Of a stretch of DNA of 64,000 bases, positions 36,209-64,000 are shown piece by piece. The notes beneath the pieces were generated by a model. That model worked only from the letters and a program-made list of their open reading frames with translations, was not told the DNA's origin and made no database searches. A program made the position numbers and the translations under genes. The stretch is from Desulfovibrio sp. Huiquan2017 (GTDB lineage: Bacteria > Desulfobacterota > Desulfovibrionia > Desulfovibrionales > Desulfovibrionaceae). How positions within the stretch are numbered: the first letter of the stretch is position 1; every line of letters begins with the position of its first letter. The stretch is taken from NCBI RefSeq assembly GCF_017351175.1, contig NZ_JAFMPN010000002.1, positions 186,001 to 250,000 on the forward strand, given 5' to 3'.

Positions 36209-36437
36209 GGCGTCTCCGCACGTAATTAGATGGACCTCAGCGTACCCAGTTTCCCCGAACTTAGGCAAGTCCTTTGCCGAGGTTCTCATTTTTGCACCGG
36301 GGCGTTGGCCCGTGCCGCCTGTCCGTGCGCGGCAAGACCTCCGTCAGCCGGTCCGGTCGTTTTTGCGAGGCAATTCTCGCTGACGCCGGTTGACATATCT
36401 TTTCGCCCGGAGTATTCGTTTTTGAAGTCGAAACGCC

Positions 36438-36454
36438 GTCCGACAATGTCGCAC
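36438..36454. promoter_or_regulatory. IclR operator candidate 1
   Basis: GTCCGACAATGTCGCAC is a near-palindrome matching the pattern GTGCGA-N5-TCGCAC found twice more downstream. It sits just before the chosen iclR start, consistent with autoregulation, and argues that the in-frame ATG at 36446 inside it is not the start. Confidence 0.55.
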
Positions 36455-36466
36455 GCAAAGGTAGCC

Positions 36467-37222
36467 ATGTCCGAAGGAAGAATTATCCAGTCCGTAGCCC
36501 GGGCGCTGAATATCTTGGAACTGTTTGAAAGTTCCACCGATCTCAGCGTGACGGAAATCGCTAATCGGCTCGATTTGAGCAAAAGCACGGCCTTCGGTCT
36601 GATCAACACCCTCGCGCACAAAGGCTACTTGGAGCAGAACCCCCGTGATTCCCGATATTCGTTGGGTCTCAAGCTGCTCCGGCTGGGGGGGGCGGTCCAG
36701 CGGCACAATATCATCGTCAAGCGGGCCAAGCCCTTTATGGAAAAACTCGTCCAGGAGTTCGCGGAAACGGTTCATCTGACCGTCGAACGTAACGGCATGG
36801 TGGTCTACATCGAGAAGATCCGGGGCGAAAAGGCCATCTTCATGCAGTCGGCCGTCGGCGCGGAAAATCCGATGTATTGTACCGGCGTCGGGAAATGCCT
36901 GCTTGCCTATATGCCTGCGGCGAAGCTGGAGCGGCTGCTCCAGAAGATGCAGCCGCTGGAACGGCGCGGGCCGAACACCATTATGGACATCGAGGAGCTG
37001 CGCCAGGAGTTGCAGGTCATTCGCGAACGCGGCATCAGTATCGACGATGAGGAGCATGTCCCCGGCCTGATGTGCATCGCCGCCCCGATCCGGAATCACG
37101 ATGGAGAGGTCATCGCGGCCATCAGTATTTCCGGGGCCAAGGCGGGCATTTCGTCGAAGCTGGTCGGTCGGATATCGGAAAAGGTGGCGTGGACCGCGCA
37201 GCAGATCAGTGCGGCCATGTAA
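36467..37222 (+). CDS. IclR-family transcriptional regulator
   Basis: A 251-residue regulator: N-terminal winged HTH (IIQSVARALNILELFE, LSVTEIANRLDLSKSTAFGLI) and the IclR effector domain (VHLTVERNGMVVYIEKI, AVGAENPMYCTGVGKCLLA, ISISGAKAGIS). IclR proteins usually control sugar-acid or aromatic-acid catabolism, and the next operon degrades sugar acids. Start ATG 36467 was chosen because AAAGG precedes it and the protein then begins MSEGRIIQSV, normal for the family; ATG 36446 and frames further up are alternatives. Palindromes before and after the gene look like its operators. Confidence 0.9.
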   Translation: MSEGRIIQSVARALNILELFESSTDLSVTEIANRLDLSKSTAFGLINTLAHKGYLEQNPRDSRYSLGLKLLRLGGAVQRHNIIVKRAKPFMEKLVQEFAETVHLTVERNGMVVYIEKIRGEKAIFMQSAVGAENPMYCTGVGKCLLAYMPAAKLERLLQKMQPLERRGPNTIMDIEELRQELQVIRERGISIDDEEHVPGLMCIAAPIRNHDGEVIAAISISGAKAGISSKLVGRISEKVAWTAQQISAAM

Positions 37223-37249
37223 TTTTTTTTCACATACGATGCGAACACT

Positions 37250-37266
37250 GTGCTACATTGTCGCAC
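37250..37266. promoter_or_regulatory. IclR operator candidate 2
   Basis: GTGCTACATTGTCGCAC, one mismatch from a perfect GTGCGA-N5-TCGCAC palindrome, 28 bases after the iclR stop codon. Confidence 0.5.
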
Positions 37267-37434
37267 GACAGAAGTGTGACTCAGGGGCAATCCTGTAGGA
37301 AAACCCTGTGTTGAGCACACGGAATTGACGGAAAACAGCATGTTGAAATGTGCCCACGCCGGTCTGCGAAGGTGGTGGGCAGTGCCCCGGGAGTAGGGCG
37401 GACTGTGCGCAAAGTCCTCCACTGACGGTGCCGT

Positions 37435-37453
37435 GTTCGCTTTTTGTGCGAAC
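37435..37453. promoter_or_regulatory. IclR operator-like palindrome 4
   Basis: GTTCGC-N7-GCGAAC contains the half-site GTGCGA and a related arm with longer spacing. It is weaker than the other copies but lies between them. Confidence 0.35.
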
Positions 37454-37640
37454 GATGTCCGGTAATGTCGGACAAATGGTGAGCCCGTTTATTGAGTGAG
37501 CGGGAGGGCTGGTCGGGATTGTGAAGACGCAACCTGTGCCTCGGCGGGCCCTGTCATGCTGATGGTTGATGGAGCCCCAGGCCGGTTGCGGAGCGGGAGG
37601 TGTGCTTGGGGGAATATTTTTCACCTCTGGTGTGAATGTC

Positions 37641-37657
37641 GTGCGATATAGTCGCAC
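37641..37657. promoter_or_regulatory. IclR operator candidate 3 (perfect palindrome)
   Basis: GTGCGATATAGTCGCAC is a perfect 6-5-6 inverted repeat about 590 bases upstream of the permease gene. Together with sites 1 and 2 it defines the consensus GTGCGA-N5-TCGCAC. Confidence 0.6.
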
Positions 37658-38247
37658 AAGGCGGTTGCGGTTCAGTGAAAATAGGCAGCTCCATGGCGAA
37701 ACGTCCGAGCGAGGGCATGGGCGGCTGCCGAACACTTCGTGAGGGGATAATCGTTAAATGACGGAGGGTAATGTCTAGTGGTGTTTTTCCCGCCGCTGCC
37801 CGGCTGTTCGACAGCCAAGGCGCGCGGGACGAACAAGGCGCGTCAGACTGCTTGCCAATCCGGCGGCAAACTGCTTTGACGGGGCTCCCGCCCTCGGGGG
37901 CATGTCATAATTCCCAATCCCACGCCGGAGGGAAATTCCCGTCCACCGTTGTCGCGGCGGTGGAAGAAAACCGGCCCGGTCGGCAGGACAATGCGCGTCA
38001 TCGTCCGCCAAATCTGGAAACGAGGCGACGGTCCGAAGGACCGAAAAAATGGCGACTTTTTGTTGCCGTATTCATCACCGCTGAAGGGGCGGGTCCGATA
38101 GACCGCATCGAGTGTCTCAGGGGTGTTGAAAATTATCATGATGGAATGCAATGAAATGAAAATCGTCGGGACAGGGAAGGCAGGACGGATGCACAGGCGA
38201 CGCATCGGCACCTTTGAGTGTTCCCGACATAAATAAATGAGAATATT

Positions 38248-39663
38248 ATGACACCAGTACTGTTTTTGATCATTCTTGCGATTGCTATCATCTTCTTGAT
38301 GTTGCTGATTATGAAAGTCAAAATGCATCCTGTGCTCGCCCTCTTCCTGACGAGCATCGGACTCAGCCTGGCGTTTGGCAACACTCTCATCGATTCCGTT
38401 AACCTGATCAACACCGGATTCGGTGGAACCCTCAAGGGCATCGGCGTCACGATCATCCTCGGTTCGATTTTGGCCATGGGTATCCAGGACACCGGCGCGG
38501 CCACTTCGATCTGCAACTTTTTCACGCGCCTGTTCCGCGGACGGGCTCTCGAACTGGCTCCGGCGCTCACGGCGTACATCGTTTCCATCCCGGTGTTCGG
38601 CGACATCACCATGGTCCTGACCGCGCCGATCGCTTCCATCCTGTCCCGGCGCAAGAAGATTTCCATGTCCTCCATGTCCTCGTTCATCGGCATGGGCCTC
38701 GGGCTTACGCACGGCCTGGTGCCGCCCACCCCCGGCATCCTGGCCATCGCGCTGATGTACGGCGCGGATCTCGGCCTGACCATCTTCTGGGGGATCATCA
38801 TTTCGTTCGTGGCCTTCATCGGAACCTGGCTGTTGCTGCGCAAGTGGGCCGCCAAGGAATGGATCGAGCCTCGGGAGGATTTCGTGGAAGGCATCGAGCC
38901 CGCCAAGTCCGATTCGATTGATGACATCATCATTCACGAGAAGGGGCTGCCCAATGCGTTCATGTCCCTGCTGCCCGTTCTGATTCCCGTGGTGCTCATC
39001 ACTTTCGCCTCCTTCGCCAAAGTCTATATGAAGGACGGCGGCGCGACCCTGACTTTCTTCACCTCCGTGGGCGACAGGGTTATGGCCCTGCTGCTGGGCG
39101 TCGTGTTCACCGTCGTGCTCGGCTACCTCAAGGCCGACAAGGTCAAGGCCCACCATCTTCGCAACTCCGGCAATGACGGCGCGAGCCTGAGCCAGATCCT
39201 TCTCGGCACCTGGGTCGGACGCGGCCTCGTGGTCGCGCTGCTGCCCTTGCTGATCACCGCCATGGGCGGCGCCATGGGCGGCATCCTGAAAAGCGTTCCC
39301 GTGGTCAAGGACCTGGGCGTCATGGTCGCGGACACCAATCTGCTGCCCATCATGATTCCCTTCCTGACCGCCTCCATCCTGATGACGGCCATCGGTTCCA
39401 TGACCACCGCGGGCCTGACCGCCGCCGCCATCGTCCTGCCCATGCTGGACTCCCTGGGGATCTCCCCGGTGGCCGCCACGCTGTCCATCGGTTGCGGCAC
39501 CATGATCTTCAGCCACCTGAGCGACAGCGGCTTCTGGATCATGACCCAGTTCTTCAACCTGAACACGACCCAGGGCCTGAAGTACCTGACCCTTCCGCGC
39601 GCCGTCAGCGGCGTGATCGGATTCATTACGCTGTCGATCCTCGTTTCGATGGGGCTGATCTAG
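38248..39663 (+). CDS. GntP-family gluconate/sugar-acid permease
   Basis: A 471-residue membrane protein with about 12-14 hydrophobic helices. GntP features include LALFLTSIGLSLAFG near residue 32, FGGTLKGIGVTIILGSILA near 58 and GTMIFSHLSDSGFWIMTQFF near 425. It imports gluconate-like sugar acids with protons. It leads an operon whose next genes are a KDG-type aldolase and a sugar-acid dehydratase, so the substrate is probably an aldonic acid. The ribosome site is weak (ATGAGAATATT), perhaps limiting expression. Confidence 0.9.
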   Translation: MTPVLFLIILAIAIIFLMLLIMKVKMHPVLALFLTSIGLSLAFGNTLIDSVNLINTGFGGTLKGIGVTIILGSILAMGIQDTGAATSICNFFTRLFRGRALELAPALTAYIVSIPVFGDITMVLTAPIASILSRRKKISMSSMSSFIGMGLGLTHGLVPPTPGILAIALMYGADLGLTIFWGIIISFVAFIGTWLLLRKWAAKEWIEPREDFVEGIEPAKSDSIDDIIIHEKGLPNAFMSLLPVLIPVVLITFASFAKVYMKDGGATLTFFTSVGDRVMALLLGVVFTVVLGYLKADKVKAHHLRNSGNDGASLSQILLGTWVGRGLVVALLPLLITAMGGAMGGILKSVPVVKDLGVMVADTNLLPIMIPFLTASILMTAIGSMTTAGLTAAAIVLPMLDSLGISPVAATLSIGCGTMIFSHLSDSGFWIMTQFFNLNTTQGLKYLTLPRAVSGVIGFITLSILVSMGLI

Positions 39664-39748
39664 CCGCGTATTCGTCCGGACTTCGGAGACGACTTTTAAG
39701 CAGGCCGGAATTCCGGCCAAGATGTGACAATACAATAAGGAGTTACCA

Positions 39749-40651
39749 ATGTCTTTTGACGCATTCAAGGGAGTCATCCCGCCCGTTTCGACCATCATGA
39801 ACGACAAGGGCGAATTCGACGCCGACGGGATGGGAATATTCATAGACAGGTTGGTCGAAAGCGACGTGAATGCGCTGCTGTTTTTGGGCAGCGCGGGAGA
39901 ATTCTCCCAGATGACGAACGCCACGCGCAAACAGGTCGCGGAATTCTGCGTGAAGCGCGTGGCCGGGCGCAAGCCGGTCATCATCGGCACCGGCGCCTGC
40001 GGCACGGCGGAGGTCATCGAGCTGAGCGAGCATGCGGCCCACATCGGGGCCGACGCCGTGATCGTGGTGAATCCGTACTATGCGTCCATGAGTGAAGAGC
40101 GGCTCTACCGCCACTACCGGACCATCGCGGAGAGCGTCTCGATTCCGGTGCTGATGTACAACTTCCCGGCCTTGACCGGCCAGGATCTGTCGCCCGCGCT
40201 GGTGACGCGCATCGCCAAGGACTGCCCGAACGTGATCGGCATCAAGGACACCGTGGACTGCATCAGCCACATCCGGGACCTGATCTTTCAGGCCAAGGGC
40301 GCCCGTCCGGACTTCAAGGTCATCTGCGGATACGACGAGTATCTGTTCACGACGCTGGCCCTGGGCGGCGACGGCGGCATCGTCGGCACCTCGAACTTTG
40401 CCCCCGAGATTACTTGCGGCATCTACAAGGCCTTTCAGGAGAAGGACATGGCGGCAATCGCCGAACTGCTTCCGCGCCTGAGCATACTGTCCCAGCTCTA
40501 TTCGTTGGATACGCCGTTTTCCTGGCTGCTGAAAGAAGCCGTCCGCGCGACCGGTTCGGATATCCCCACTGGCGTGGCCGCCCCGGCCAGCGAACCCGAC
40601 GAAGACGTCAAGAAGCGTTTCCGGGAAATCCTCAAGCAGGCGGGCTTCTAG
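39749..40651 (+). CDS. DHDPS/NAL-family class I aldolase (2-keto-3-deoxy sugar acid type)
   Basis: A 300-residue (beta/alpha)8 protein of the DapA/NanA superfamily. GSAGEFSQM is the oxo-acid-binding loop (residues 49-57), the conserved tyrosine is in VLMYNFPAL near 137 and the Schiff-base lysine in VIGIKDTVD near 165. The neighbouring permease and dehydratase suggest it cleaves a 2-keto-3-deoxy-aldonate to pyruvate plus an aldehyde, like YagE/YjhH, and not lysine biosynthesis. A strong AAGGAG precedes ATG 39749. It starts 85 bases after the permease. Confidence 0.88.
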   Translation: MSFDAFKGVIPPVSTIMNDKGEFDADGMGIFIDRLVESDVNALLFLGSAGEFSQMTNATRKQVAEFCVKRVAGRKPVIIGTGACGTAEVIELSEHAAHIGADAVIVVNPYYASMSEERLYRHYRTIAESVSIPVLMYNFPALTGQDLSPALVTRIAKDCPNVIGIKDTVDCISHIRDLIFQAKGARPDFKVICGYDEYLFTTLALGGDGGIVGTSNFAPEITCGIYKAFQEKDMAAIAELLPRLSILSQLYSLDTPFSWLLKEAVRATGSDIPTGVAAPASEPDEDVKKRFREILKQAGF

Positions 40652-40709
40652 AGAAGCGTCCACGAAGGGCGCGATTCGAATCGCAACACTGTGAAAAGGA
40701 GATATTACC

Positions 40710-42431
40710 TTGCAAAAACAAAGATGTGAACGCGTACGCGATCTCTGGTCCCAGGTCGACGCCCTCATGATGGGCATGAACTGGACGCGGGAAGACGTTG
40801 AAAAACCGCAGATCCTGGTTGACGATGTCCAGGGCGACAGCCATCCCGGCAGCTACCATCTCGACGTACTGAGTGAAGAGGCGTCCATCGGCGTCTACGA
40901 GGCGGGCGGACGTCCGGCCAAGTTCCACGTCACCGACATCTGCGACGGCTGGGCTCAGGGGCATGAAGGCATGAACTTCATTCTCTGCTCGCGCGGCATC
41001 ATCGCCGACATGGTGGAGATCCACGCCTCCGTCATTCCGTGGGACGGCATGCTGCTGCTCTCCGGATGCGACAAATCCACTCCCGCCCACCTGATGGCGG
41101 CTGCCCGCATGGACATCCCCACCATCCATATCCCCGCCGGGGCCATGCGTTCCGGTCCGGGCAACTCCACCTCCGGCCTGGCCGGTCCGCTGTCCGCCCG
41201 CAAGAAAAAGGGCCATGTGGACCTCGCGGAGATGCGCGACTACAAGCTCACGGGTTGCCCCTCCTGCGGCGCCTGCCAGTTCATGGGCACGGCCAGCACC
41301 ATGCAGTGCATGTCCGAGGCCCTGGGCATGGCCCTGCCCGGCACCGCGCTCATGCCCGCGACCATGGCCGAAATCCGGCGCATGGCCCGGGCGGCGGGAA
41401 AGCATATCCTGTACCTGGCGGAGAAGGGCATCACGGCCCGCAAGATCATGACCAAGGCGAACTTCACCAACGCCATGAAGGTTCATGCGGCCATCGGAGG
41501 CAGCACCAACGCCTACATCCATATGCCCGCCATCGCCCATGAACTCGGGCTCGAACTCCATCCCAGGGAGTTCGACGCCATCGGGCAGGAGATTAAATAC
41601 ATCACCAACATCCAGCCCAGCGGCAAGTACACGGCCGAGCTGTTCTGGTTCGCGGGCGGCATCCCCATGGTGCAGCACATGCTTCGTGACCAGCTCGACC
41701 TGGACGTCCTGACTGTGACCGGACACTCCCTGGGCGATTCGCTGGCCATGCTGGAGCAGGACGGCTTCTTCAACCGTTGCCTCGGCCACCTGAAGAGCTA
41801 CGGCATTCCGCGCGAGGACGTCATCCGTACCACCGAGCAGTCGGACAAGTGCGGTTCCATCGCCGTGCTGGAAGGCAATCTGGCTCCCCAGGGGGCGGTG
41901 GTGAAGTATGCGGCCGTGAAGCCTGACATGCACCGGCATATCGGCCCCGCTGCCGTCTTCGACAGCGAGGACGATGCCCAGTCCGCGATCATCGCGGGCA
42001 AAATCCGTCCCGGTTCCGTCGTGGTCATCCGCTATGAAGGCCCCAAGGGTAGCGGCATGCCGGAGATGTTCATGACCACCGACGCCATCGTCTACGACGA
42101 GACCCTCAACGGCACGGTCGCGATCGTGACGGACGGCCGTTTCTCCGGCGCGACCAGCGGTCCCTGCATCGGCCACGTTTCCCCCGAGGCGGTCGATGGC
42201 GGTCCCATCGCCCTGCTGGAAAACGACGATCTGATCGAGATCAACATCCCCGAGCGCGCCCTGCGCGTGGTCGGCGTGAAGGGCGAGGAGAAGACCTCCG
42301 AGGAAGTGGAGGCGGTCCTGGCCGAACGCCGGAAGAATTGGACCCTGCCGGAACGCCCGGAAAAGCGCGGCGTGCTCAAGCGGTATTCCGACAGCGCCGT
42401 TTCCGCCATGGAAGGAGCTTACATGCGCTAG
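40710..42431 (+). CDS. IlvD/Edd-family sugar-acid dehydratase, TTG start
   Basis: A 573-residue iron-sulfur dehydratase of the IlvD/Edd family, closest in feel to YjhG/YagF (D-xylonate dehydratase type). Cluster-binding cysteines are in HVTDICDGWAQGHEG, LLLSGCDKSTPAHL and TGCPSCGACQFMGTA; the C-terminal VTDGRFSGATSGPCIGHVSPEA is the family signature. It dehydrates an aldonate to the 2-keto-3-deoxy acid that the aldolase then cleaves. The start is TTG 40710, preceded by AAGGAG at eight bases; no better ATG exists. Confidence 0.88.
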   Translation: MQKQRCERVRDLWSQVDALMMGMNWTREDVEKPQILVDDVQGDSHPGSYHLDVLSEEASIGVYEAGGRPAKFHVTDICDGWAQGHEGMNFILCSRGIIADMVEIHASVIPWDGMLLLSGCDKSTPAHLMAAARMDIPTIHIPAGAMRSGPGNSTSGLAGPLSARKKKGHVDLAEMRDYKLTGCPSCGACQFMGTASTMQCMSEALGMALPGTALMPATMAEIRRMARAAGKHILYLAEKGITARKIMTKANFTNAMKVHAAIGGSTNAYIHMPAIAHELGLELHPREFDAIGQEIKYITNIQPSGKYTAELFWFAGGIPMVQHMLRDQLDLDVLTVTGHSLGDSLAMLEQDGFFNRCLGHLKSYGIPREDVIRTTEQSDKCGSIAVLEGNLAPQGAVVKYAAVKPDMHRHIGPAAVFDSEDDAQSAIIAGKIRPGSVVVIRYEGPKGSGMPEMFMTTDAIVYDETLNGTVAIVTDGRFSGATSGPCIGHVSPEAVDGGPIALLENDDLIEINIPERALRVVGVKGEEKTSEEVEAVLAERRKNWTLPERPEKRGVLKRYSDSAVSAMEGAYMR

Positions 42432-54463: not shown

Positions 54464-54622
54464 ACTATGCCCACCTAAGGGGGATAAATAATGAAAGTTG
54501 AAACAACGTGTGCGCAGAAGCGGGACGGGAGAGAAATTTTAATTGTTTTTTTGAAGTGTCACAGCAGGTGATATGCGGAACGACCTACTGATTGTGAGTC
54601 AGTATGTTCTGTAATTGGGCTG

Positions 54623-55715
54623 TTATGCTCGGGAGAAAACAGTGCAGTAGTTCCCCTTATCCGTCCGGCATTTCGAGCAGTGAAGGCATTTGGCAGGTGC
54701 TCGGTCGCCATCTTTCCAACGCTTGAAAAGGTTGGGTTCAGCAAGCAGCGGTCTGGACAGGCCGTACAGTTCAATATTCGTTTCATTGAGCATGGTTTCG
54801 ATATGGGCCGGGTCGGAGAGCCCCCCCTACGGTGATGACGGGGATGTCGACGTCCTGGCTGATGATGTTGCCGAACTCGGCGAAGTAGCCCTGCTTCTTG
54901 AGCTCGTGGCCATCGAATATGCGCCCGGCCATTGATTTGGCTTTTCCGTAGATGTTGCCGGATATTTCCAGCCCGTCAACGCCCAGTCTTTCCAGTGCCT
55001 TGGCGATGGCCCGTGTTTCGTCGAAGGTCTGGCCGCCCTCGAAGAATTCGCTGGCCGTCAGTTTGACGAGGATGGGGAAGTCGTCTCCCGCCTGTTCGCG
55101 CATTGCTTCATATATCTCGATGAGGAAACGCATGCGGTTTTCCAGGCAACCGCCGTATTCGTCGTCGCGCTGGTTGTAGTATGGGCTGAGGAATTGGTTG
55201 ATGAGATAGGTGTGGGCAGCGTGGATTTCCACGCCGTCGAAACCGGCTGTTTTCGCTCTTTTGCCCGCAGCCGCAAACGCCTTGACGATGTAATTGATAT
55301 CCGCCTTGGTCATGGGGGTGCCGCGTGTGCCGGAGCTTTTTTCGGGAACATCGCTCGGGGCGAAGATCGTCCTGTCGCCGACATTGTAGCTGGTCTTGGT
55401 TCCACCATAGGCGATTTGCAAAATTATTTTGGAATCATGCTTGTGGACCCTGTCTGTCAGGAGTGCGTATTCGCCGATAAACGCATCATCGTATATCCCC
55501 ATCATGCCGGGGTTGGGTTGCTCTTCTTCGACAATGTTGGCGTATCCGGTGATGATCATGCCGACTTCGTTTTTGGCCAACTCCTCATAGATGGTATATA
55601 GGCGATCTGTCATGTGGCCGTCGTCAGTGGTCATGTTTTCCCATGTCGCGCTGCGGACCAGACGGTTTTTCAACGACATCGGGCCGATATTGCATGTGTC
55701 GAAAAGTGTTTTCAT
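54623..55715 (-). pseudogene. Old-yellow-enzyme-family oxidoreductase with one-base frameshift
   Basis: Starts MKTLFDTCNIGPMSLKNRLVRS and reads as an OYE/2-enoate-reductase barrel: HAAHTYLINQFLSPYYNQR near residue 167 and GVDGLEISGNI near 245. At a C7 run (54821-54827) the frame breaks. With one base fewer, the sequence continues as VGGLSDPAHIETML, LYGLSRPLLAEPNLFKRW and CLHCSKCRTDKGNYC to a stop at 54623. Either the assembly has an extra base or the gene is broken. It follows the cytochrome operon after a double hairpin. Confidence 0.8.
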
Positions 55716-55750
55716 TGCGGTACCGTGTGATGTGATTTGAGAGGAAAGCC

Positions 55751-55814
55751 GGGGCCGGACAGTATTGTCCGGCCCCTTGGGGCTTTCTGAGGTGACGGGT
55801 AGGAGGTACCCGTC
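55751..55814 (-). terminator. Tandem hairpins after the cytochrome gene
   Basis: Two hairpins lie in the 138-base gap: GGGGCCGGACA / TGTCCGGCCCC (11 bp, GTAT loop, 55751-55776) and GACGGGTA / TACCCGTC (8 bp, 55794-55814). They probably end the flavocytochrome operon before the OYE gene. Confidence 0.6.
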
Positions 55815-55853
55815 TAGTAGGGAGTGGCTATGGTTTCACTGTGTGATGACTGT

Positions 55854-57548
55854 TTATTTTTCTTTGTCGTTTTTCATCTTGCCCGTGATCATGCTGCGGA
55901 CCAGCGCAAAGACGCTTTCGCCCGTGGTGCAGAGGTACAGGTGGACCACAAGGAAGACGACCATCAGGAAGGCCGAAGCCGTGTGGGCCAGCGAGACAAA
56001 GCGTTCGCCTTCCATGCCCATGATCTTAGCCGGGATCAGGTCCGGGATAAACAGGTAGACACCTGATACCACCAGGGCCGGGAACAGGATGAACAGGACG
56101 CCGACATACGAAGCCTGCTGCAGCGGATTCAAACGCTTCCTGGGATCATGGCCTGCCGGGTTTTCCTCGCCTTTGTAGATGCCGAACATGTAGTAGCGCA
56201 GCTGTTTGAAGGTGGCCGAGATGAAATCGGCACGCGGCAGGTACTGCATGATCTGGCCGGACAGGATGAGGTAGAGCACGTACAGCATCCACATGCCAGC
56301 CAGCCCGATGGCGAGCGTGGCGTGGGTGGACTGTGCCGCCTTGAAACTCATGCCCGCACCGAAGTGCATGGAGAATCCGGAGACGATCAGGACGAGGAAC
56401 AAGGCCGCGTTGATCCAGTGCCAGACTCTGACGAGCAACGGGAACATGGTCACCACGGTGCCGCCATGGGCAATGGCCTTGGTGCCGGACATCCGCAATA
56501 CGGAATGGACGACGATGACCAGCAGGATTACGGCCAGCAACTGCATGAACCGGGCATTCAGCACCGGAGTCTGAGTGATGCCGGTGACGTACTTGCTGTC
56601 GAGCAGGCTCGCGTTCATGAACCCGAGCACGGAGTCGGCTTGGTCAGTGCTGGCAACGATCAGCTGGGCGTTCTCCTCGACGAGTTTTTTGTCATCGAAC
56701 AGCCCCTTGTTGACCATGGAGAATGCCTTTTGCTCATTGCGGTATTTATTCAGCTTGGTGAGCATGGCGGACGACTTGGAGTGGCAGTACTCGCAATCGA
56801 CCATTGCGCCATTGGCCTGCATGTCCTTGACCTGCATGATAACATGGACGTCGGTTCCCTTGTTTGCGGCATGGCAGTCCACACAGCGCACAGCGGCAAA
56901 GTGCTTTTCCTTATGCGGCAGGAACCAGTGGGCCATGTTCTGATCAAGCAGCTTCTTGTCGGTCAGGGCCTCATAGCCGCGCAGGTCGTTGTGGCACTGG
57001 AAGCAGCGTTCATTGGCTTGTGCTATGGAGCCGGGAATGTCCTCGGTTCGCTCCGGAAGGCGGAACGAGTGGGCATTGTGGCAGGACGAACACGGGAACG
57101 GCTTGCCTTTTTCAACAATGGCTTTGGTATGGTAGCTGCGCTTGGTCTGCTCGGCGATGTCCTTGAAGTAGTCTTTGTGACAGGTCATGCAGTCCACGGG
57201 CTGCTTGTCTTTGAACTTGTGGGGTGCGCTGGCAAAGGCCTCAGGGCCTGCGCCTTCGTGGCAGCTCTGGCAGCTCTGACCACTGTGGACCGAGTTGCGA
57301 TAGTCGACCGGGTCGACGTAGAGTTGCAGAGTGCGACCTCTGTCCGTTTTCCATTGAGAGTTGATTTCACGTTTGCCGTGGCAGGTGAAACACGTCTCGT
57401 TTTGTTTGAGAGCCTGGTGACGCATGCGGTCGGCCTGGGAGTAAAATTGCTCCTCATGGCTGGCCGTGTCGTCTGCCGCCATGGCCCCTGCCGCCGTCAG
57501 CAAGGCGATCAGTATGACCAGGCATGCAATGGCCTGTTTGATAAACAT
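55854..57548 (-). CDS. Heptaheme cytochrome c fused to cytochrome b561-type membrane domain
   Basis: A 564-residue protein with a signal peptide (VILIALLTAAGAMAAD) and seven CxxCH heme sites between residues about 54 and 260 (CFTCH, CQSCH, CMTCH, CSSCH, CFQCH, CVDCH, CEYCH). The C-terminal third has membrane helices with the cytochrome b561/FdnI-like pattern (VRVWHWINAALFLVLIVSGF, HTASAFLMVVFLVVHLYL) carrying histidine ligands. It should oxidise menaquinol in the membrane and pass electrons through its own hemes to the periplasmic cytochrome encoded by the next gene upstream. It follows that gene by 21 bases. Confidence 0.88.
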   Translation of the reverse strand: MFIKQAIACLVILIALLTAAGAMAADDTASHEEQFYSQADRMRHQALKQNETCFTCHGKREINSQWKTDRGRTLQLYVDPVDYRNSVHSGQSCQSCHEGAGPEAFASAPHKFKDKQPVDCMTCHKDYFKDIAEQTKRSYHTKAIVEKGKPFPCSSCHNAHSFRLPERTEDIPGSIAQANERCFQCHNDLRGYEALTDKKLLDQNMAHWFLPHKEKHFAAVRCVDCHAANKGTDVHVIMQVKDMQANGAMVDCEYCHSKSSAMLTKLNKYRNEQKAFSMVNKGLFDDKKLVEENAQLIVASTDQADSVLGFMNASLLDSKYVTGITQTPVLNARFMQLLAVILLVIVVHSVLRMSGTKAIAHGGTVVTMFPLLVRVWHWINAALFLVLIVSGFSMHFGAGMSFKAAQSTHATLAIGLAGMWMLYVLYLILSGQIMQYLPRADFISATFKQLRYYMFGIYKGEENPAGHDPRKRLNPLQQASYVGVLFILFPALVVSGVYLFIPDLIPAKIMGMEGERFVSLAHTASAFLMVVFLVVHLYLCTTGESVFALVRSMITGKMKNDKEK

Positions 57549-57569
57549 ACGGTTTTCCTCCTGATCTCT

Positions 57570-58043
57570 TTAGGGAACCTGGTAATCGAAGTGGTGGCAG
57601 TTTTTGCAGTAGAATTCGGATTTGCCATGTTCCTTGTGGCAGGCGTCACAGGGGAGTTCCGTCCCCCAGTGGGGAGAGTTGTGGGGGTTGGGGTCGAGTT
57701 TGACGGTGCGCTTGGCAGCGTCTTCGGGAGTGCCGTGGCAGTTGGCGCAGTTGCGGGTGTCGGGAGGAGCGGTCGGCTCTTTGACTGCGTGGCACAGTTC
57801 ACAGTTGGTGCCGTTCTGGTGAATCTTCTTGTGGAAGCTTTTCACCGGCACTTTGCCGAACACCTTGTTGTCGATTATGTCAATGGTGATTTGGCGGACC
57901 TTGTGTTGTTCCAGAGTTGTTTCGGCAACAGACGGTTTTTCTTCAACTTCTTGCTGCGCGCGGAGAACGCTCGGTGCAAGGAAGATTCCAATGACAAACA
58001 GCGTAAGAATCGCCCCGGAGGCGACGGAAGCCTTCGTTTTCAT
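57570..58043 (-). CDS. Tetraheme cytochrome c (flavocytochrome type)
   Basis: A 157-residue exported protein with signal peptide (SGAILTLFVIGIFLAPSVLRA) and four heme sites CELCH, CANCH, CDACH and CKNCHH. The arrangement, with HNSPHWGTELPCDACHKEH before the third, resembles the tetraheme domain of Shewanella-type flavocytochrome c fumarate reductase, here encoded separately from the flavin subunit. It should relay electrons from the heptaheme/b561 protein to the flavoprotein. It lies 30 bases after the flavoprotein gene. Confidence 0.88.
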   Translation of the reverse strand: MKTKASVASGAILTLFVIGIFLAPSVLRAQQEVEEKPSVAETTLEQHKVRQITIDIIDNKVFGKVPVKSFHKKIHQNGTNCELCHAVKEPTAPPDTRNCANCHGTPEDAAKRTVKLDPNPHNSPHWGTELPCDACHKEHGKSEFYCKNCHHFDYQVP

Positions 58044-58073
58044 AGTAAAACCCTTCGGTATTTATGGTGCGAT

Positions 58074-59648
58074 TTAGACCGGTTCGTTGTCGGCGATGTT
58101 CTTGCCGGCAGTGCGACCCATGACAAGGCAGTCGGTGATGGCGCAGCTGCCGAGGCGGCTTGCTCCATGGGGACCGCCGGTAACTTCACCCGCAGCATAC
58201 AACCCGTCGATGGGCTTGAATGTCTGGGAGTGGAGGACATGGGCGTTGACATCGATCTGAACGCCGCCCATGCAGTGATGAACCTTGGGCCATCCGCGCA
58301 CGCCGTAGAAGGGCGCTTTGATAATGGGCGTGGCCGTGCTGAGCGGTTTACCGAATTCGGGATCGTTCTTGTCTGCGACGTACTTGTTGTAGTCGGTGAT
58401 GGTCTTTTGGAGGCTTTCGGCCGGGACTTTGTAGAAGTTTGCCAGCGCCTCAACCGTCTCGAAACTGTTGACGACCTTGTACTTGAGGCAGCGGTCCAGC
58501 GTGGGGCAGGCCTCTGCGCCCTTGCTGTCGACGAGGATGATCGGATAGTCCGGGTTGCCGTTTCCATCGACCTTTTTCAGCATGGCATCGGCGCGGGTTT
58601 TACGGTCAGCCAGTTCGTTGACGAAACGCTTGCCGGTAGAGCGGTCGACCATGACGCCGTAGCGGAAACCGGACTGAATGTTGAACATGGAAGCAACGCC
58701 GAAGCCCTGCTCGTCCGGGGATGCCCACGGGCCGAGCTGGATCAGGGATATTTGGACCGGGATGGCGCCCGCGCGGAATGCGGCGCGCATAGCTTCACCG
58801 GTTGCACCCAGTTGGTTGGTGGAGTCGATCTTGCCTGCGAGACGGGGGTCCTGAGATGCGCGGAATTTGGCATCCTGGCTGAAGCCGCCGGTGGCGAGAA
58901 CTACGCCTCGGCGTGCGTGGAAGTTACAGATCTGTCCGCTTTCCTCATCCGGGAAGCGGTAGCCGTCGCGGGCGCGGATGCCCACAATGCGGTGATCGTC
59001 GTTGACGATGAATTCGAGCATTTTGCAACCGGTGCGCAGGACAACGCCTTCGGCGCGCGCAGTTTTCACGAGCGGGCGGACAATGCCGGAACCGGATGCG
59101 TTATGGGTGAGGTAGGTGCGGGCTACGGAGTGGCCGCCGAGCCAGGAGAGCTTGGGCTTGAAGACCGCACCGCACTGGATAACGAAATTATATGCGTCGA
59201 TGGAGCCTTCGGCGATGGCTTTGGTGATCTCGACATGGTTGATGCCGCGCCCGGCTTTCAGCATATCGTTCACCATGAAGTCGATGCTGTCCGTGACGCC
59301 TTCCTTTTTCTGGAGCTCACTGCCTGCGACGGCAAAGAGGCCGCCGTTGATGCAGGAGTTGCCGCCCAGAACGCGCATCTTTTCAACAACCATGACGTCG
59401 AGGCCCTTGCGGCGGGCTTCAATGGCTGCGGACAGGGCGGCAAAGCCGCTGCCGATGACCAGGACGTCGAATTCGGCATCCCATTTGGTGGTGGGCAGTT
59501 CCGAGCGGACTGCGGGCGCTTTTTCACTGGCAAGGCTACCGCCCGCGCCAAAGAGGACAGCCCCCGCCGCCATGGCACCGCCGTTTAAAAGCAGCTTGCG
59601 GCGGGACATCGCTGCCGCCTTGAGTTTTTCATCCCTTGAATTGGACAT
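58074..59648 (-). CDS. Tat-exported FAD flavoprotein of the fumarate-reductase/flavocytochrome c family
   Basis: A 524-residue protein with a twin-arginine signal (SRRKLLLNGGAMAAGAVLFG). The FAD motif is VIGSGFAALSAAIEARRKG, with VVLATGGFSQ and the C-terminal DGLYAAGEVTGGPHGASRLG. A catalytic-region WPKVHHCMGG matches the HHTMGG histidine region of fumarate reductases. It reduces an unsaturated acid or similar acceptor in the periplasm; the substrate is not deducible. ATG 59648 gives the best spacing from AAAGGAG; an ATG six bases upstream (59654) is also possible. Confidence 0.88.
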   Translation of the reverse strand: MSNSRDEKLKAAAMSRRKLLLNGGAMAAGAVLFGAGGSLASEKAPAVRSELPTTKWDAEFDVLVIGSGFAALSAAIEARRKGLDVMVVEKMRVLGGNSCINGGLFAVAGSELQKKEGVTDSIDFMVNDMLKAGRGINHVEITKAIAEGSIDAYNFVIQCGAVFKPKLSWLGGHSVARTYLTHNASGSGIVRPLVKTARAEGVVLRTGCKMLEFIVNDDHRIVGIRARDGYRFPDEESGQICNFHARRGVVLATGGFSQDAKFRASQDPRLAGKIDSTNQLGATGEAMRAAFRAGAIPVQISLIQLGPWASPDEQGFGVASMFNIQSGFRYGVMVDRSTGKRFVNELADRKTRADAMLKKVDGNGNPDYPIILVDSKGAEACPTLDRCLKYKVVNSFETVEALANFYKVPAESLQKTITDYNKYVADKNDPEFGKPLSTATPIIKAPFYGVRGWPKVHHCMGGVQIDVNAHVLHSQTFKPIDGLYAAGEVTGGPHGASRLGSCAITDCLVMGRTAGKNIADNEPV

Positions 59649-59714
59649 ACACATAATCTCCTTTAAAATGACAGACGATTCCTCTTGATGCCGCCGCGTC
59701 GCCCCCACGGCGCG

Positions 59715-60056
59715 TTAGATGGCGACATCCCCAGCAGGACCGCTTGCCAGCTCCCGAAGGTCTTCATAGTCAGCCGCCCCGAGGAAGCGTTGTTGTTCAA
59801 CTCCGGAAAAGAAGAGGAGGAAGGTGGGACTTCCATCCAGCTTCATCTCTTTTTCGAAGTACGAACTGTACGCGGGGTTCAACACCGCGCACGTAACGCG
59901 TTTTCCGGCAGTCTGTGCGAGATCCGAAAGGACTTGCATCTGACCGCCTGAGATCAGGTCGTTTGACAAGTAGCCGATAACCAGCAGCCCGGGAGTTTCT
60001 TCCACGAGGGCATGATACTGGTCGGGATTCAGCATTTTACACTTACGAAGAGGCAT
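59715..60056 (-). CDS. Thioredoxin-fold protein without CxxC
   Basis: A 113-residue protein with thioredoxin-like strands (GLLVIGYLSNDLISGGQ, VTCAVLNPAYSSYFEKEMK, GSPTFLLFFSG with the cis-proline). Where thioredoxin has WCGPC, this one has LISGGQ, so the redox pair is missing. It is the first gene of the flavocytochrome operon and may be a chaperone or maturation factor for the Tat-exported flavoprotein, by analogy to HyaE-type proteins. ATG 60056 is preceded by AGGAG; with the predicted promoter, the mRNA leader would be only about 13 bases. Confidence 0.7.
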   Translation of the reverse strand: MPLRKCKMLNPDQYHALVEETPGLLVIGYLSNDLISGGQMQVLSDLAQTAGKRVTCAVLNPAYSSYFEKEMKLDGSPTFLLFFSGVEQQRFLGAADYEDLRELASGPAGDVAI

Positions 60057-60080
60057 GGTTTACGCTCCTAGCCCCGTAAA

Positions 60081-60095
60081 GCAGGTAGTGTGCCA
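60081..60095 (-). promoter_or_regulatory. Sigma54 promoter of the flavocytochrome operon
   Basis: The minus strand reads TGGCACACTACCTGC: a perfect -24 TGGCAC and GG-N10-GC spacing, with CTGC in place of TTGC at -12. It lies 25 bases before the first gene, and a sigma54 activator gene ends 132 bases upstream, with repeated sites between. Confidence 0.7.
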
Positions 60096-60153
60096 ATATT
60101 AAAGAATATCATATCTATCCAAAATATTTAGTTTTATTGCGAATATGTAAAAT

Positions 60154-60221
60154 GTGTAACGTCTGTGAAATGTGTAGCAATGTTTACAGTGTTACACAAT
60201 GTGTAATGTGCCTTGTTACAC
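60154..60221. promoter_or_regulatory. Cluster of GTGTAAC/GTTACAC elements (activator sites)
   Basis: Within 68 bases there are GTGTAAC (60154), GTGTAGC (60172), the palindrome GTGTTACAC (60189), GTGTAAT (60201) and GTTACAC (60215). They lie 60-140 bases upstream of the sigma54 promoter, the classic position for enhancer-type activator binding. Confidence 0.65.
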
Positions 60222-60226
60222 TTTGT

Positions 60227-62026
60227 TCAAGATATCCCGGCCCGTTTCATCCAGCGGTACAAAGTCGGGCGGCTGATGCCGAGTATGCGTGCCGCTTTGG
60301 CTTTTTTCCCGCTGGCTTGTTCCAAAACCCCTCGAACAACGTCCGCATCAAATGTGTGTGACTTGGAGGGAGTGGCGGGATGTGCTGGGGAGGATTGTGT
60401 TTTTTGGGGTGTTTCAGAAAGCTGCTGGCAAAGGCTTGAGAAGTTGTCCTTGAAGGTTCGTGGCAGATGTACGGGGGTCAGCATTGCCTCCCGGCAAAGG
60501 ATGGTCGCGTATTCTATGCAATGCCTGAGTTCGCGGACATTGCCTGGCCAATCGTAGCGAACAAGGATGTCCATGAGCTCCGGGGAAATGGACTTGATGG
60601 AGCGGGCAAGCTCGTTGTTGAACATTGTGACAAAATGCTCAACAAGGAGCGGGATGTCCTCTTTGCGTTCCCTGAGAGGGGGAAGTTCGATCTGGAAAAC
60701 GTTGAGTCTGTAATACAGGTCCTTTCTGAATGAACCGTCCTGAATTTTCTGCAAGAGGTCCGCGTTGGTCGCTGTGATTACGCGGACATCCGCTGTCCTT
60801 GAGCGGGAACTGCCGACCCGTTCGTATTTCTTGTATTCCAGAAAGCGGAGAAGCTTGAGCTGGATAGAAAGCGGTAGATCTCCCACTTCGTCTAGAAACA
60901 GGGTGCCTCCTTCGGCTGCTGCCACGCGCCCCTCGGAAGCCTGAGTCGCACCGGTAAATGCACCCTTTATATGACCGAACAGTTCGCTTTCCAAAAGTGA
61001 TTCGGACAGGGCGGCGCAGTTGACTTTGACAATGCGCTTGTCTGCCCGGTTGCCGTTGTAGTGCAGGGCGTCGGCAACCAACTCCTTGCCGGTCCCGGAT
61101 TCGCCGGTGATCAGCACCGTGGTCTCAAGGTCGGAGAGGCTTTGCACCAAGCTGGCGATATGTTGTAAGGCCTCGCTTTTGCCCATCATGTTGTTGAGCA
61201 ACTTCCGATCTTGCAACTGTTGCTCCAGCACGGCGAGGCGGGTCATGTCTTTGATGATCAAAACCGTGCCGCCAAAGCTGTAGTCACCGGTCCGCAGGGG
61301 AGCCGCATTCAACTCCAACCTGCACTCCCTCCCGTCCGGATTGCGGGTGGTAATCTGGAAAAGTGAGGTGATCCTCCCGATCTCCAACGTCTGCTTGATC
61401 ACATTCTCATAGGGGCGCGACGCTTCGCCAAAGCACTCTTTAAGAGTTTTTCCTTTGTAATCCATGAGAATGCCACCATACAGGGCCAGAAACGCCTCGT
61501 TGGCGGACAGTATGCGCATATCGTCATCAAGCGTGGCAATGGCATCCGGGATGCTGTTGAACGAATACTCCATGTTCAAGCGCAGTCGATGCATCTCGTT
61601 GGTATTGCGCTGCATTTCCTGCTGGATGCCGTAATATGCGACGGCCCCGGCCAAGCGCTGCATGAACAACTGGACCAACGGTTCTGCTTCGGGAGTTTGT
61701 GCGCCGATGATTCCGCATTTCAGGTGGCAGTTCGCATCGGTGTGTTCGCAAATGAAATCGATTTCAGCCGATGTGGGTAAATCTTCGAAGGAAAACTCCG
61801 AGAGAAAGAAATCCGGTTTGGGATCGGATGAATTGAATATCGCAAGGACAGGAAAGGTTTCCTGTTCCAGTTCGATCATCAGGGAAACCTGCGAAGCCTG
61901 CGTCAATTCCAGAAGCGTCTCAAGCGCGGTGCTGACTATCCTGTGCAGGTCCTTACCTTGAATGGTATCCAGTCGCAGAAAGAGGCTTGCGAGACTGATG
62001 CCGTGAATATCAATAGGTTCACTCAT
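60227..62026 (-). CDS. PAS-containing sigma54-dependent activator of the flavocytochrome operon
   Basis: A 599-residue activator without receiver domain. Residues 1-145 form a GAF-like sensor with ANCHLKCGIIG, residues about 155-270 a PAS domain, then the AAA+ domain (Walker A GESGTGKE, GAFTGA loop, Walker B TLFLDEVGD) and a C-terminal Fis-type HTH (GKKAKAARILGISRPTLYRWM). The gene sits directly upstream of the flavocytochrome operon on the same strand and is flanked on both sides by GTGTAA-type repeats, suggesting that it binds them to activate the operon and regulate itself. The small molecule it senses is probably the substrate. Confidence 0.92.
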   Translation of the reverse strand: MSEPIDIHGISLASLFLRLDTIQGKDLHRIVSTALETLLELTQASQVSLMIELEQETFPVLAIFNSSDPKPDFFLSEFSFEDLPTSAEIDFICEHTDANCHLKCGIIGAQTPEAEPLVQLFMQRLAGAVAYYGIQQEMQRNTNEMHRLRLNMEYSFNSIPDAIATLDDDMRILSANEAFLALYGGILMDYKGKTLKECFGEASRPYENVIKQTLEIGRITSLFQITTRNPDGRECRLELNAAPLRTGDYSFGGTVLIIKDMTRLAVLEQQLQDRKLLNNMMGKSEALQHIASLVQSLSDLETTVLITGESGTGKELVADALHYNGNRADKRIVKVNCAALSESLLESELFGHIKGAFTGATQASEGRVAAAEGGTLFLDEVGDLPLSIQLKLLRFLEYKKYERVGSSRSRTADVRVITATNADLLQKIQDGSFRKDLYYRLNVFQIELPPLRERKEDIPLLVEHFVTMFNNELARSIKSISPELMDILVRYDWPGNVRELRHCIEYATILCREAMLTPVHLPRTFKDNFSSLCQQLSETPQKTQSSPAHPATPSKSHTFDADVVRGVLEQASGKKAKAARILGISRPTLYRWMKRAGIS

Positions 62027-62033
62027 TGCTTTT

Positions 62034-62067
62034 ATGTAAAGTGTAACGTGTAAAGTGTAAAGTTACA
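62034..62067. repeat. Four tandem 7-bp repeats upstream of the activator gene
   Basis: ATGTAAA, GTGTAAC, GTGTAAA, GTGTAAA occur head to tail at 62034-62061 and are followed by GTTACA. The heptamers match the elements upstream of the flavocytochrome operon. Overlapping the regulator's own promoter region, they suggest autoregulation. Confidence 0.65.
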
Positions 62068-62396
62068 GGTGGTAGCTCAAATGGGGGGCGGACAACAGGG
62101 ATTGGTCAAGAGAATGAGAAGTGGGGTCACTTTGTTGAACCACTGAACGGCGCTTCGAGGCGTTTATCAAAAGCCGGCCGAGGGCATGGGTAAAGAAGCA
62201 TGGTTGAGCTTGTACTGCTCGACTAAATTGGGATAACTCGCGAATTTTGTTGTTGGTTATGTTGCTTTTGAGAATCTGGATGCGGAAATCTGGTGACACC
62301 ATCTTTTCACCCCTAAGTCTTTGGGCAATATACATCCCAGCCACCCCAGGGCATCCCCCTGCACTCAAATGTATACCAGCCTGTATACCAAGGCAC

Positions 62397-62429
62397 AAAA
62401 AAAGCACCTACGAATTGTCATAAGTGCTT
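62397..62429 (-). terminator. tRNA-type intrinsic terminator
   Basis: AAGCAC / GTGCTT stem followed on the minus strand by a U-run (A-run 62397-62403). It lies nine bases past the CCA end of the tRNA fragment and is probably the original terminator of that tRNA gene. Confidence 0.7.
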
Positions 62430-62437
62430 GATTTAGT

Positions 62438-62484
62438 TGGAGAAAGGAATCGGAATTGAACCGACGACCTACTGATTACGAATC
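62438..62484 (-). tRNA. 3' fragment of tRNA-Thr(CGU), probable attachment site
   Basis: On the minus strand 47 bases match the 3' part of a tRNA: anticodon loop TTCGTAA (anticodon CGT), anticodon 3' stem, variable loop AGGTC, a T-arm with GTCGG-TTCAATT-CCGAT, the acceptor 3' strand and encoded CCA. The 5' part (D-arm, first acceptor strand) is absent: upstream bases do not pair. This is how a tRNA-targeted integrative element leaves its far end. No functional tRNA is made. Confidence 0.75.
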
Positions 62485-62587: not shown

Positions 62588-63004
62588 TTAGTGGAGCAAA
62601 ATTGGAGCAAAAAAAGATGCATTTTCTGTTGGTGATTGTCGGTTTTGATGGATTGCAATTGGCGTGATGAAGTGGGATGCAGCACGATAAATACGGTAGG
62701 TTGTGTGAAGCTCTCTTAGGGCGTGCGGTCTGTCCTCGTAAACAACCAAGGCGCGAGCGATTAAATCGCACATGGGTTGCTCGTTCCCGGATACTCCCTC
62801 AATGCACGCATCCAACCAGCCGTCTTTAAGCTTCTCTGTGTCCACCTAGTATCCGGCATTGTGAGCCAACGGCGAGAGATAATAGCGAGCCGTCCGCTCG
62901 TTTCCTTCCCTGAAAGGGTGGGCCGTGCTGAGCCAACATGTAGGCTACTCGCTCAACGAAAACGTTCGGTGGAGATACTTTGAGGTAGTGTTCTTTGACC
63001 AGTC
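62588..63004 (-). pseudogene. Decayed Fic (fido) domain gene
   Basis: The minus strand carries HPFREGNERTARYYLSPLAH, the Fic active-site motif (usually HPFxxGNGR, here with Glu for the second Gly), preceded in another frame by SPPNVFVERVAYMLAQHG. A TAG at 62846-62848 interrupts it; the frame then continues VDTEKLKDGWLDACIEGV and NEQPMCDLIARAL. Both the frameshift and the stop mark it as dead. It was probably an AMPylating toxin or effector carried by the integrated element. Confidence 0.7.
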
Positions 63005-63443: not shown

Positions 63444-64000
63444 GTGTCCATCAAGCAGGGGATGCTTTCCTTTTGTATTGGGGAAGCGTGGCGGGGGGCT
63501 GTCCGTCCTCGGCGGTTGTTTTTGGTCTGCATTCTGGCCCTGGCCATGCTTGCCAGGCCCGGCATCGGCATGGGGGCACCCATCGACGACGCCATCCGGC
63601 AACAACAGCAAATCCAGCAGCAGGAGGAGCAGCGGCGTCTCGAGTTGGAGCGAAGGCACCGCGAAGAGCTTGAAAAGGCCCCCTCGGGCCAGGAGTTGCA
63701 GCCACAGAAGCCCACCGAAAAGCCAGAATCGGAAAGCTGCTTCGAGGTCAGGACCATCGAGTTTTCCGGCATGACGTTGCTCGGACTTCGGGAAGTAGCG
63801 CCGGTCAAGGCCAAATATCAGGGGCGCTGCCTGACCATCACGGACATCAACAATCTGGTCCGTGACGTGACCAATCTGTATATCCAAAAGGGCTATGTCA
63901 CGACCCGCGTGGCCGTCCCCCAACAGGATCTTTCCAGTGGCATTTTGCGGCTTCAAGTTGTCGAGGGGAAAGTCGAGAAAATCGAACTCAAGGAAGGGGA
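63444..64000 (+). CDS. Two-partner secretion outer-membrane transporter (TpsB/FhaC/ShlB type), partial
   Basis: The gene runs off the right edge; 185 codons are visible. It has a long signal region (LFLVCILALAMLARPGIGMG), a Gln/Glu-rich coiled segment (QQQQIQQQEEQRRLELERR) as in ShlB/FhaC helix H1, and a POTRA domain (VRTIEFSGMTLL, CLTITDINNLVRDVTNLYI, GYVTTRVAVPQQDLSSGIL, VVEGKVEKIEL). Such proteins export large adhesins or contact-dependent toxins, usually encoded next door. GTG 63444 with GAGGG was chosen as start; ATG 63462 is an alternative. Confidence 0.85.
   Translation, partial: MSIKQGMLSFCIGEAWRGAVRPRRLFLVCILALAMLARPGIGMGAPIDDAIRQQQQIQQQEEQRRLELERRHREELEKAPSGQELQPQKPTEKPESESCFEVRTIEFSGMTLLGLREVAPVKAKYQGRCLTITDINNLVRDVTNLYIQKGYVTTRVAVPQQDLSSGILRLQVVEGKVEKIELKEG

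Follow-up and report, generated by a model that had tools for sequence, protein, structure and literature searches.

How might a Desulfovibrio use an unsaturated acid as a periplasmic electron acceptor, and which protein would deliver the electrons? The question is raised by six minus-strand genes in a 64,000-nucleotide stretch of Desulfovibrio sp. Huiquan2017 (contig NZ_JAFMPN010000002.1, positions 186,001 to 250,000; this whole stretch is hereafter the window). In the list of open reading frames (ORFs) their order is ACT, a sigma54 activator; TRX, a thioredoxin-fold protein; FLAV, a flavoprotein; CYT4, a tetrahaem cytochrome; B561, a multihaem cytochrome with a membrane b561 domain; and OYE. 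A sequence-only reading of the window had taken them for a self-contained reductase module, and the ORF list has all six at the place and on the strand that it gave. The module probably encodes a quinol:2-enoate reductase for respiration, of the Mrd/Mcc-FccA type, that is under sigma54 control and was acquired by horizontal transfer; its flavoprotein would come from an uncharacterised branch and its donor would be CbcL-like. Sequence comparison lends this reading a probability of about 0.68.

The flavoprotein and its active site

The prediction of a Tat-exported flavoprotein is borne out by a score of 480.3 bits against TIGR01813 (flavocytochrome c), above the family cut-off of 285.45, and by a leader of the Tat type, MSNSRDEKLKAAAMSRRKLLL. 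Among solved structures, FLAV matches urocanate reductase (E 2.4e-65) and Ifc3/FccA (E 2.9e-65 and 9.4e-65) best. Comparison of the active site with fumarate, urocanate and (via a proxy) methacrylate reductases, as the sequence-only reading had proposed, made use of a MAFFT alignment of 56 rows, 7 partial flavoprotein rows having been dropped beforehand; positions are given in FccA numbering (R402, R544, H365, T377 and E378). Arg402, Arg544 and the first His of the HH motif are retained in 56/56 rows, window included, and the second His in 47. At H365, T377 and E378, the second-carboxylate residues of FccA, all 13 close rows, again with the window, carry Gly, Asn and Ile/Leu, so that FLAV has none of the three in this alignment; the loss of His365 to Gly is common to the phmmer and MAFFT alignments. 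FLAV also differs here from UrdA, whose row has Tyr at the H365 position. Because the second-carboxylate residues are lost, the best guess at the substrate would be a monocarboxylic 2-enoate (of the acrylate, crotonate or aryl-acrylate type) and not fumarate or urocanate. Acrylate-type acids are the leading candidates, given the published activity of Mrd and the occurrence of the module in Vibrio and Photobacterium.

In a tree of 54 rows (rows L066 and L079 being additionally dropped), the window FLAV falls in a 12-row subclade (support 100/100) within a 41-row clade (100/99) that is separate from FccA, Ifc3 and UrdA, and from rows resembling Mrd relatives. Members of the FLAV clade include Bacillota, gut Eggerthellaceae and an archaeal metagenome-assembled genome (MAG). 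A gut flavin reductase study by Little et al. may describe a characterised member of this clade. The own genome holds no second close FLAV, the next match being at E 2.1e-10. The parts of the module are of known kinds, with FLAV from a branch in which no characterised member was found, and no orthology of the whole gene set to a characterised reductase came to light by structure match, alignment, tree or open-licence literature.

Mrd itself is represented in these comparisons by a proxy, L105, which was chosen for its Tat motif RRSVIK, its length (510 aa, counted from the first Met) and the 4-haem ORF that comes next; the Desulfatibacillum entry of PMC4427408 has RRSVIK, 511 aa and a 109-aa 4-haem gene. 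The proxy is a tentative one: its cytochrome ORF, at 146 aa, is longer than the 109 aa of that entry, and Tyr stands where Trp is reported for Mrd (PMC4427408). FLAV lies apart from the starred clade of the proxy (L104/L105), and does not cluster with Mrd as far as this proxy can stand for it. Mrd is described with relatives at 62-65%.

Conservation and distribution of the module

A FLAV search of genome contigs gave 18 relatives. Apart from the window, 12 loci have a FLAV of at least 72% identity: G304, G298, G306, G303, G237, G244, G101, Vibrio hannami, three Photobacterium and a Myxococcota MAG (G298 was taken as the Desulfovibrio sp. UBA2564 MAG, L064, and counted once). The search for the same gene order in other genomes, another suggestion of the sequence-only reading, found FLAV, CYT4 and B561 directly following one another in all 10 close relatives that could be tested (L065, L067-L069, L082, L084-L088), with L066 and L064/L083 excluded for contig edges. 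ACT and TRX lie upstream in all seven loci of the window's family. The module is patchy in its distribution, none of the congeners having a close TRX orthologue.

Outside chromosomal contigs, a plasmid search for FLAV relatives returned 6 records, one at 44% and five at 32-33% identity, and the 3 pattern matches among viral contigs included no relative. The 44% relative lies on a Tropicibacter oceani plasmid (L138, 8902-11154) and is followed by a cytochrome c3 family gene. Neighbouring genes were fruitless as a clue to the substrate: in Vibrio and Photobacterium the gene after the reductase operon looks by eye like a pyruvate formate-lyase (L065 12998-15298; L067 12868-15165), and the other flanks differ.

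The cytochrome and the proposed quinol-side donor

Both cytochromes are as the sequence-only reading described them. CYT4 is a separate tetrahaem protein with 4 CxxCH motifs and a PF14537 match, its likeness to the Cgr1 model being weak (26.9 bits, cut-off 340), and B561 joins a multihaem c domain with 7 CxxCH motifs to a PF01292 b-type membrane domain. A B561 search of 60 relatives (35 of them congeners) gave 28 matches at E<=0.001; the haem part is matched as well only in congeners G013, G014 and G021 (32-34%), and the others match over the b561 part. These three carry a paralogous FLAV-CYT4-B561 set, in which FLAV is 45-48% identical, the activator is divergent, and no TRX was found alongside.

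A phylum-wide search with a B561 alignment, in which at most 3 candidates were scored per genome, gave matches at E<=1e-40 in 10 of 395 genomes, the match being whole-length in the window only. In 5 of the other nine genomes (L129, L132-L135) there is an ORF with 7 CxxCH motifs and a b561 match, and in three of these a 4-haem ORF adjoins it. A simple motif check flagged no flavoprotein near these donors (roughly 3.8 kb each), and none of the five genomes is among the 16 with FLAV at E<=1e-50. The notion of a unique 7-haem/b561 donor was rejected, at least 5 other genomes of 395 having one. Because five other genomes carry such ORFs with FLAV unflagged, the fused donor is a part that can be reused; its layout is comparable to that of CbcL.

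These findings divide the earlier statement that the combination could not be named: no characterised orthologue was found, but neither the fused donor nor the split flavocytochrome is peculiar to it. A split flavoprotein and cytochrome is known for Mrd/Mcc and for FccA and its haem subunit in Wolinella (PMC4427408, Tables 1 and 2), and 147 gene clusters in 108 genomes are of this split kind according to PMC8238504.

Gene arrangement and the probable end of the operon

The coordinates of the module and its borders are collected in Table 1. The genes downstream of ACT are closely spaced, with gaps of 66 nt (TRX-FLAV), 30 nt (FLAV-CYT4) and 21 nt (CYT4-B561), followed by 138 nt between B561 and OYE. 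Because this last gap folds into strong hairpins (minimum free energy -51.4, z -7.24, with equally stable shuffles in 0/200), the operon most likely ends before OYE; the gap is absent from a terminator scan for a stem plus T run.

Table 1. Features of the reductase module and its borders, in window coordinates
Feature	Position	Strand	Length or basis
Left direct-repeat copy ACGACCTACTGATT, tRNA anticodon-arm-like	54580..54593	.	repeat search
OYE ORF (PF00724 family)	54783..55715	-	310 aa
Intergenic hairpins between B561 and OYE	55716..55853	-	folding
B561: signal peptide, 7 CxxCH haem c domain, membrane b561 domain	55854..57548	-	564 aa
CYT4: tetrahaem cytochrome, hydrophobic N-terminus, PF14537	57570..58043	-	157 aa
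FLAV: Tat-type leader, FAD-binding_2 reductase	58074..59648	-	524 aa
TRX: thioredoxin-fold, CxxC-less, cis-Pro loop retained, no hydrophobic leader	59715..60056	-	113 aa
Sigma54 -24/-12 box TGGCACACTACCTGC	60081..60095	-	pattern search
GTGTAA/TTACAC repeats, putative activator binding sites	60154..60221	.	pattern count
ACT: sigma54 activator, PAS, AAA+ (GAFTGA) and Fis-type helix-turn-helix	60227..62026	-	599 aa
3 more GTGTAA repeats immediately upstream of ACT gene	62041..62060	.	pattern count
3' half tRNA-Thr(CGT) copy plus flank, holding right repeat copy (62464-62477)	62392..62484	-	

The OYE gene that was said to follow is present, but its frame is not intact and its place in the operon is doubtful. 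The frame breaks near residue 300 and the remainder of the gene continues in another frame down to 54623, which is the coordinate at which the sequence-only reading began the module. In the three relatives where the gene was found its product is of 363 aa, and it sits on the opposite side of the activator. OYE as a certain operon member was rejected on its broken frame, the hairpins and this different position.

The promoter and its activator

The sequence-only reading had placed a GAF/PAS sigma54 activator upstream. As a sigma54 activator ACT is well founded, with PAS, AAA+ and Fis-type helix-turn-helix domains, the GAFTGA motif and a -24/-12 box nearby, but the GAF domain was not detected: Pfam gave no match of any kind in residues 1-160 at E<=10, and a weak GAF_3 match (E 0.012) appeared only in a relative from L089. 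The own genome encodes sigma54 and TatC. The predicted TGGCAC-N5-CTGC promoter is present as TGGCACACTACCTGC, which begins 39 nt upstream of the TRX ORF and is the sole match within 64 kb, although one match in 64 kb is not in itself significant (33/100 shuffles have at least one). Its position is conserved in five relatives (L082-L086), where TGGCACGCGAMCTGC is equally far from the start of TRX. TGG-N9-TGC boxes likewise precede the paralogous reductases of L091-L093.

The activator is flanked by repeats, as had been noticed. Of 12 copies of GTGTAA/TTACAC in the 64 kb, 4 lie in the 170-nt ACT-TRX gap (shuffle mean 0.51; 4 reached in 1/2000 Markov shuffles) and 3 just upstream of ACT. The 250 nt before TRX hold 3 to 7 copies in 7/7 relatives, a count made with no shuffle control. 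ACT may bind these repeats.

The activator-thioredoxin pair

By itself TRX falls below the Pfam cut-off (18.9 against 23.5 bits), and its structure model is too poor for a fold search (pLDDT 49.5, pTM 0.41, 2 sequences). A profile built from 18 TRX relatives finds solved thioredoxins, the best E value being 3.6e-8 if the top row of that search, TXNDC5 at 1.1e-11, is set aside as covering 37 residues only. In the alignment of relatives CxxC occurs in 0/18 rows and the cis-proline loop in 18/18. The operon is headed, as predicted, by a thioredoxin-fold protein that lacks CxxC.

TRX was searched for in 348 genomes of the order, 45 of which match at E<=1e-4, and among these its neighbours were examined in L041-L063 and in the module relatives. 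Among congeners a match is found in 31/35, 18 of which are among L041-L063. In these 23 further TRX-paralogue loci, of about 3.3 kb each, an ACT homologue is present without exception, and the pair lies on the same strand in 22 of 22 scored cases (L062 gave no TRX hit at the cut-off). CxxC is seen in one of the 22 TRX hits, that of L061, where it was judged to lie off the active-site position; the window has none. FLAV accompanies the pair at L041 only, which is part of the G101 module, leaving 22 of the 23 loci without the reductase, and a search of genomes G238, G240, G241 and G246 gave no FLAV at E<=1e-15. The own genome holds another such pair away from the reductase (L127, G000:C3:18734-22093), with an activator of 957 aa whose start looks receiver-like by eye.

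A strict sigma54 box precedes TRX in 4/22 activator-TRX loci (0.06 expected), none of them in the window's genus; six other loci and the own-genome copy have loose matches or none. Sigma54 control is unestablished for the genus's stand-alone pairs, because the strict boxes all lie outside the genus. No description of such an activator-thioredoxin pair was found in open-licence papers, and the word 'thioredoxin' is absent from the main text of the D. vulgaris sigma54 regulome paper (PMC4641369).

Because pair and reductase each occur in the absence of the other, TRX would belong with the activator, the two forming a separate cassette. A further step can be proposed tentatively, with the odds against it: that ACT and a redox-dead TRX are a two-gene regulatory cassette, uncharacterised so far, of this bacterial family, in which TRX senses or gates a signal to ACT. 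Here the cassette would have been joined to a 2-enoate respiration module that is mobile and belongs to an unexplored flavocytochrome c branch, with insertion at a tRNA-derived cassette-exchange site.

Flanking sequences and probable transfer

The 14-bp repeat ACGACCTACTGATT occurs at 54580 and 62464, 7,884 bp apart, and in 0/100 shuffles was there any match at up to 1 mismatch. On the right it lies within a copy of the 3' half of tRNA-Thr(CGT) that is 82.8% identical over 93 nt to an intact locus on G000:C12. The intact tRNA-Thr (G000:C12:25614-25689) adjoins an ORF that by eye resembles a tyrosine integrase, and this ORF, with the truncated copy by the module, suggests a reused insertion site.

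The left flank matches congener G002 at 92-94% up to window base 54580, after which G002 has other genes, and the left junction is accordingly sharp. A radical-SAM neighbour is 95% identical in G002 and is found at E<=1e-60 in 3/36 genomes, own included. G002 has no B561 match and only a paralogous TRX. At the junction it carries what looks by eye like a sugar-acid catabolic set (L123 11665-18436), parts of which are 68-75% identical to window 36432-42236, and a 155-nt, 88% match to window 62329-62483 closes the segment. The right junction is less sure because the sequence beyond the repeat is not common to G002; the 155-nt match could reflect a further copy of that unit and not the same locus.

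The borders consist of the 14-bp copy on the left and the truncated tRNA copy on the right only; no integrase was noticed among the ORFs of 54580-62484, where no integrase scan was made, and a complete integrative element is not shown. No tRNA-Thr gene lies within the fetched stretches of 13 other loci (10 module, 3 paralogous). A tRNA-Ser gene stands just upstream of the G101 module activator (L088 12535-12629). To the right of the module, two ORFs of 598 and 2306 aa (window 63444-64000 to G000:C2:258176) look by eye like two-partner secretion, and a Fic-like motif, HPFREGNERTAR, is visible on the minus strand at about 62880-62940, where no ORF of at least 90 aa is listed.

Proposed mechanism and alternatives

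Under the quinol:2-enoate reductase reading, ACT, responding to some signal, would bind the GTGTAA repeats and fire the -24/-12 promoter, from which TRX-FLAV-CYT4-B561 would be transcribed. Electrons from the membrane quinol, presumably menaquinol, would enter the b561 domain of B561, travel along the seven periplasmic haems of this protein and reach first the separate CYT4 and then the FAD of exported FLAV, where an alpha,beta-unsaturated carboxylate would be reduced at its C=C bond by a hydride from FAD and a proton from the Arg equivalent to FccA R402. TRX, as a redox-dead partner of the activator, would stand outside the electron chain. We infer this path from quinol to b561, seven haems, four haems, FAD and alkene from family knowledge and conserved co-occurrence.

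Several observations weigh against this reading. The alignment at T377/E378 is uncertain (Met and Phe in phmmer, Asn and Ile in MAFFT), and membership of the b561 family is the ground for assuming a quinol site. Open-licence literature, solved structures and the tree yielded no member of the FLAV clade that has been studied biochemically, so that reaction and substrate rest on the residues shared with FccA. ACT and TRX are upstream in 0/5 Vibrionaceae/Myxococcota loci (with L066 seen for 3.2 kb upstream only), and control by ACT is consequently not universal. By script, neither L087 nor L088 has a strict sigma54 box, with TGGAATACTCCTTGC visible by eye in L087.

That the module is just a fumarate (or urocanate) reductase with its genes in a new order, as the best structure matches and the retained Arg/His/Arg would allow, is very improbable in view of the Gly at H365 in 13/13 close rows (Tyr in UrdA) and of a tree that splits the clades with starred support, though UrdA is on a long branch. 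The module could also work in the opposite direction, a dehydrogenase in the periplasm supplying electrons to the quinone or cytochrome pool. Enzymes of the FAD-binding_2 family include dehydrogenases (3-ketosteroid, tricarballylate), and b561 donors could be reversible. Retention of the fumarate-reductase proton-donor Arg in 56/56 rows nevertheless makes a dehydrogenase highly unlikely, and the characterised relatives with separate cytochromes that PMC4427408 names are reductases. A methacrylate/acrylate reductase in the strict Mrd/Mcc sense has the same split layout of Tat flavoprotein and separate periplasmic multihaem cytochrome, and Mrd reduces acrylate and not fumarate, with two fumarate-binding residues missing (PMC4427408). 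With the proxy L105 only 37% identical to FLAV (40% in another comparison), in a different starred clade and with Tyr at the H365 position, this identity is improbable.

In the case of TRX, the alternative is a HyaE-like Tat or cofactor chaperone for FLAV. Its place as first gene of the operon, its CxxC-less thioredoxin fold and its lack of a hydrophobic leader would suit a chaperone. A role as activator partner is preferred, and the chaperone is unlikely, since the pair is without FLAV in 22/23 other loci and in the four genomes named above, and five Vibrionaceae/Myxococcota FLAV loci are without TRX. The pair offers a directly testable regulatory partnership.

Comparison with known systems

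With FccA/Ifc3 and UrdA the module shares the FAD-binding_2 fold and the catalytic Arg/His/Arg, and with FccA the PF14537 haem domain (PMC8238504), but it is split where they are fused, and H365 is lost and T377/E378 apparently lost. The Cgr1/Cgr2 digoxin reductase likewise pairs a Tat flavoprotein of the PF00890 family with a PF14537 cytochrome, whereas Cgr1 is membrane-anchored and NapC/NirT-like and Cgr2 needs a [4Fe-4S] cluster (PMC5953540). A substrate for FLAV would help to annotate many genes of its clade.

A close parallel in layout is Mrd/Mcc of Geobacter sulfurreducens AM-1, where a Tat flavoprotein and a separate Sec-exported multihaem cytochrome share one operon, horizontal transfer is described and fumarate-binding residues are lost (PMC4427408). 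The differences are that FLAV belongs to another clade (37% to a proxy that is Mrd-like but not Mrd itself) and that a fused 7-haem/b561 donor, an activator and TRX come with the module. In AM-1 the electron carrier linking menaquinone to Mcc was called unknown in 2015 (PMC4427408). In Geobacter, CbcL also combines in one protein a multihaem c domain in the periplasm and a b-type domain in the membrane and passes electrons to a periplasmic cytochrome, a likeness of layout; it has 9 haems c against 7 in B561 and serves extracellular electron transfer (PMC9129911). The operon proposes an explicit candidate for the menaquinone-to-cytochrome carrier, in the form of a 7-haem/b561 protein that adjoins reductase and cytochrome in three phyla.

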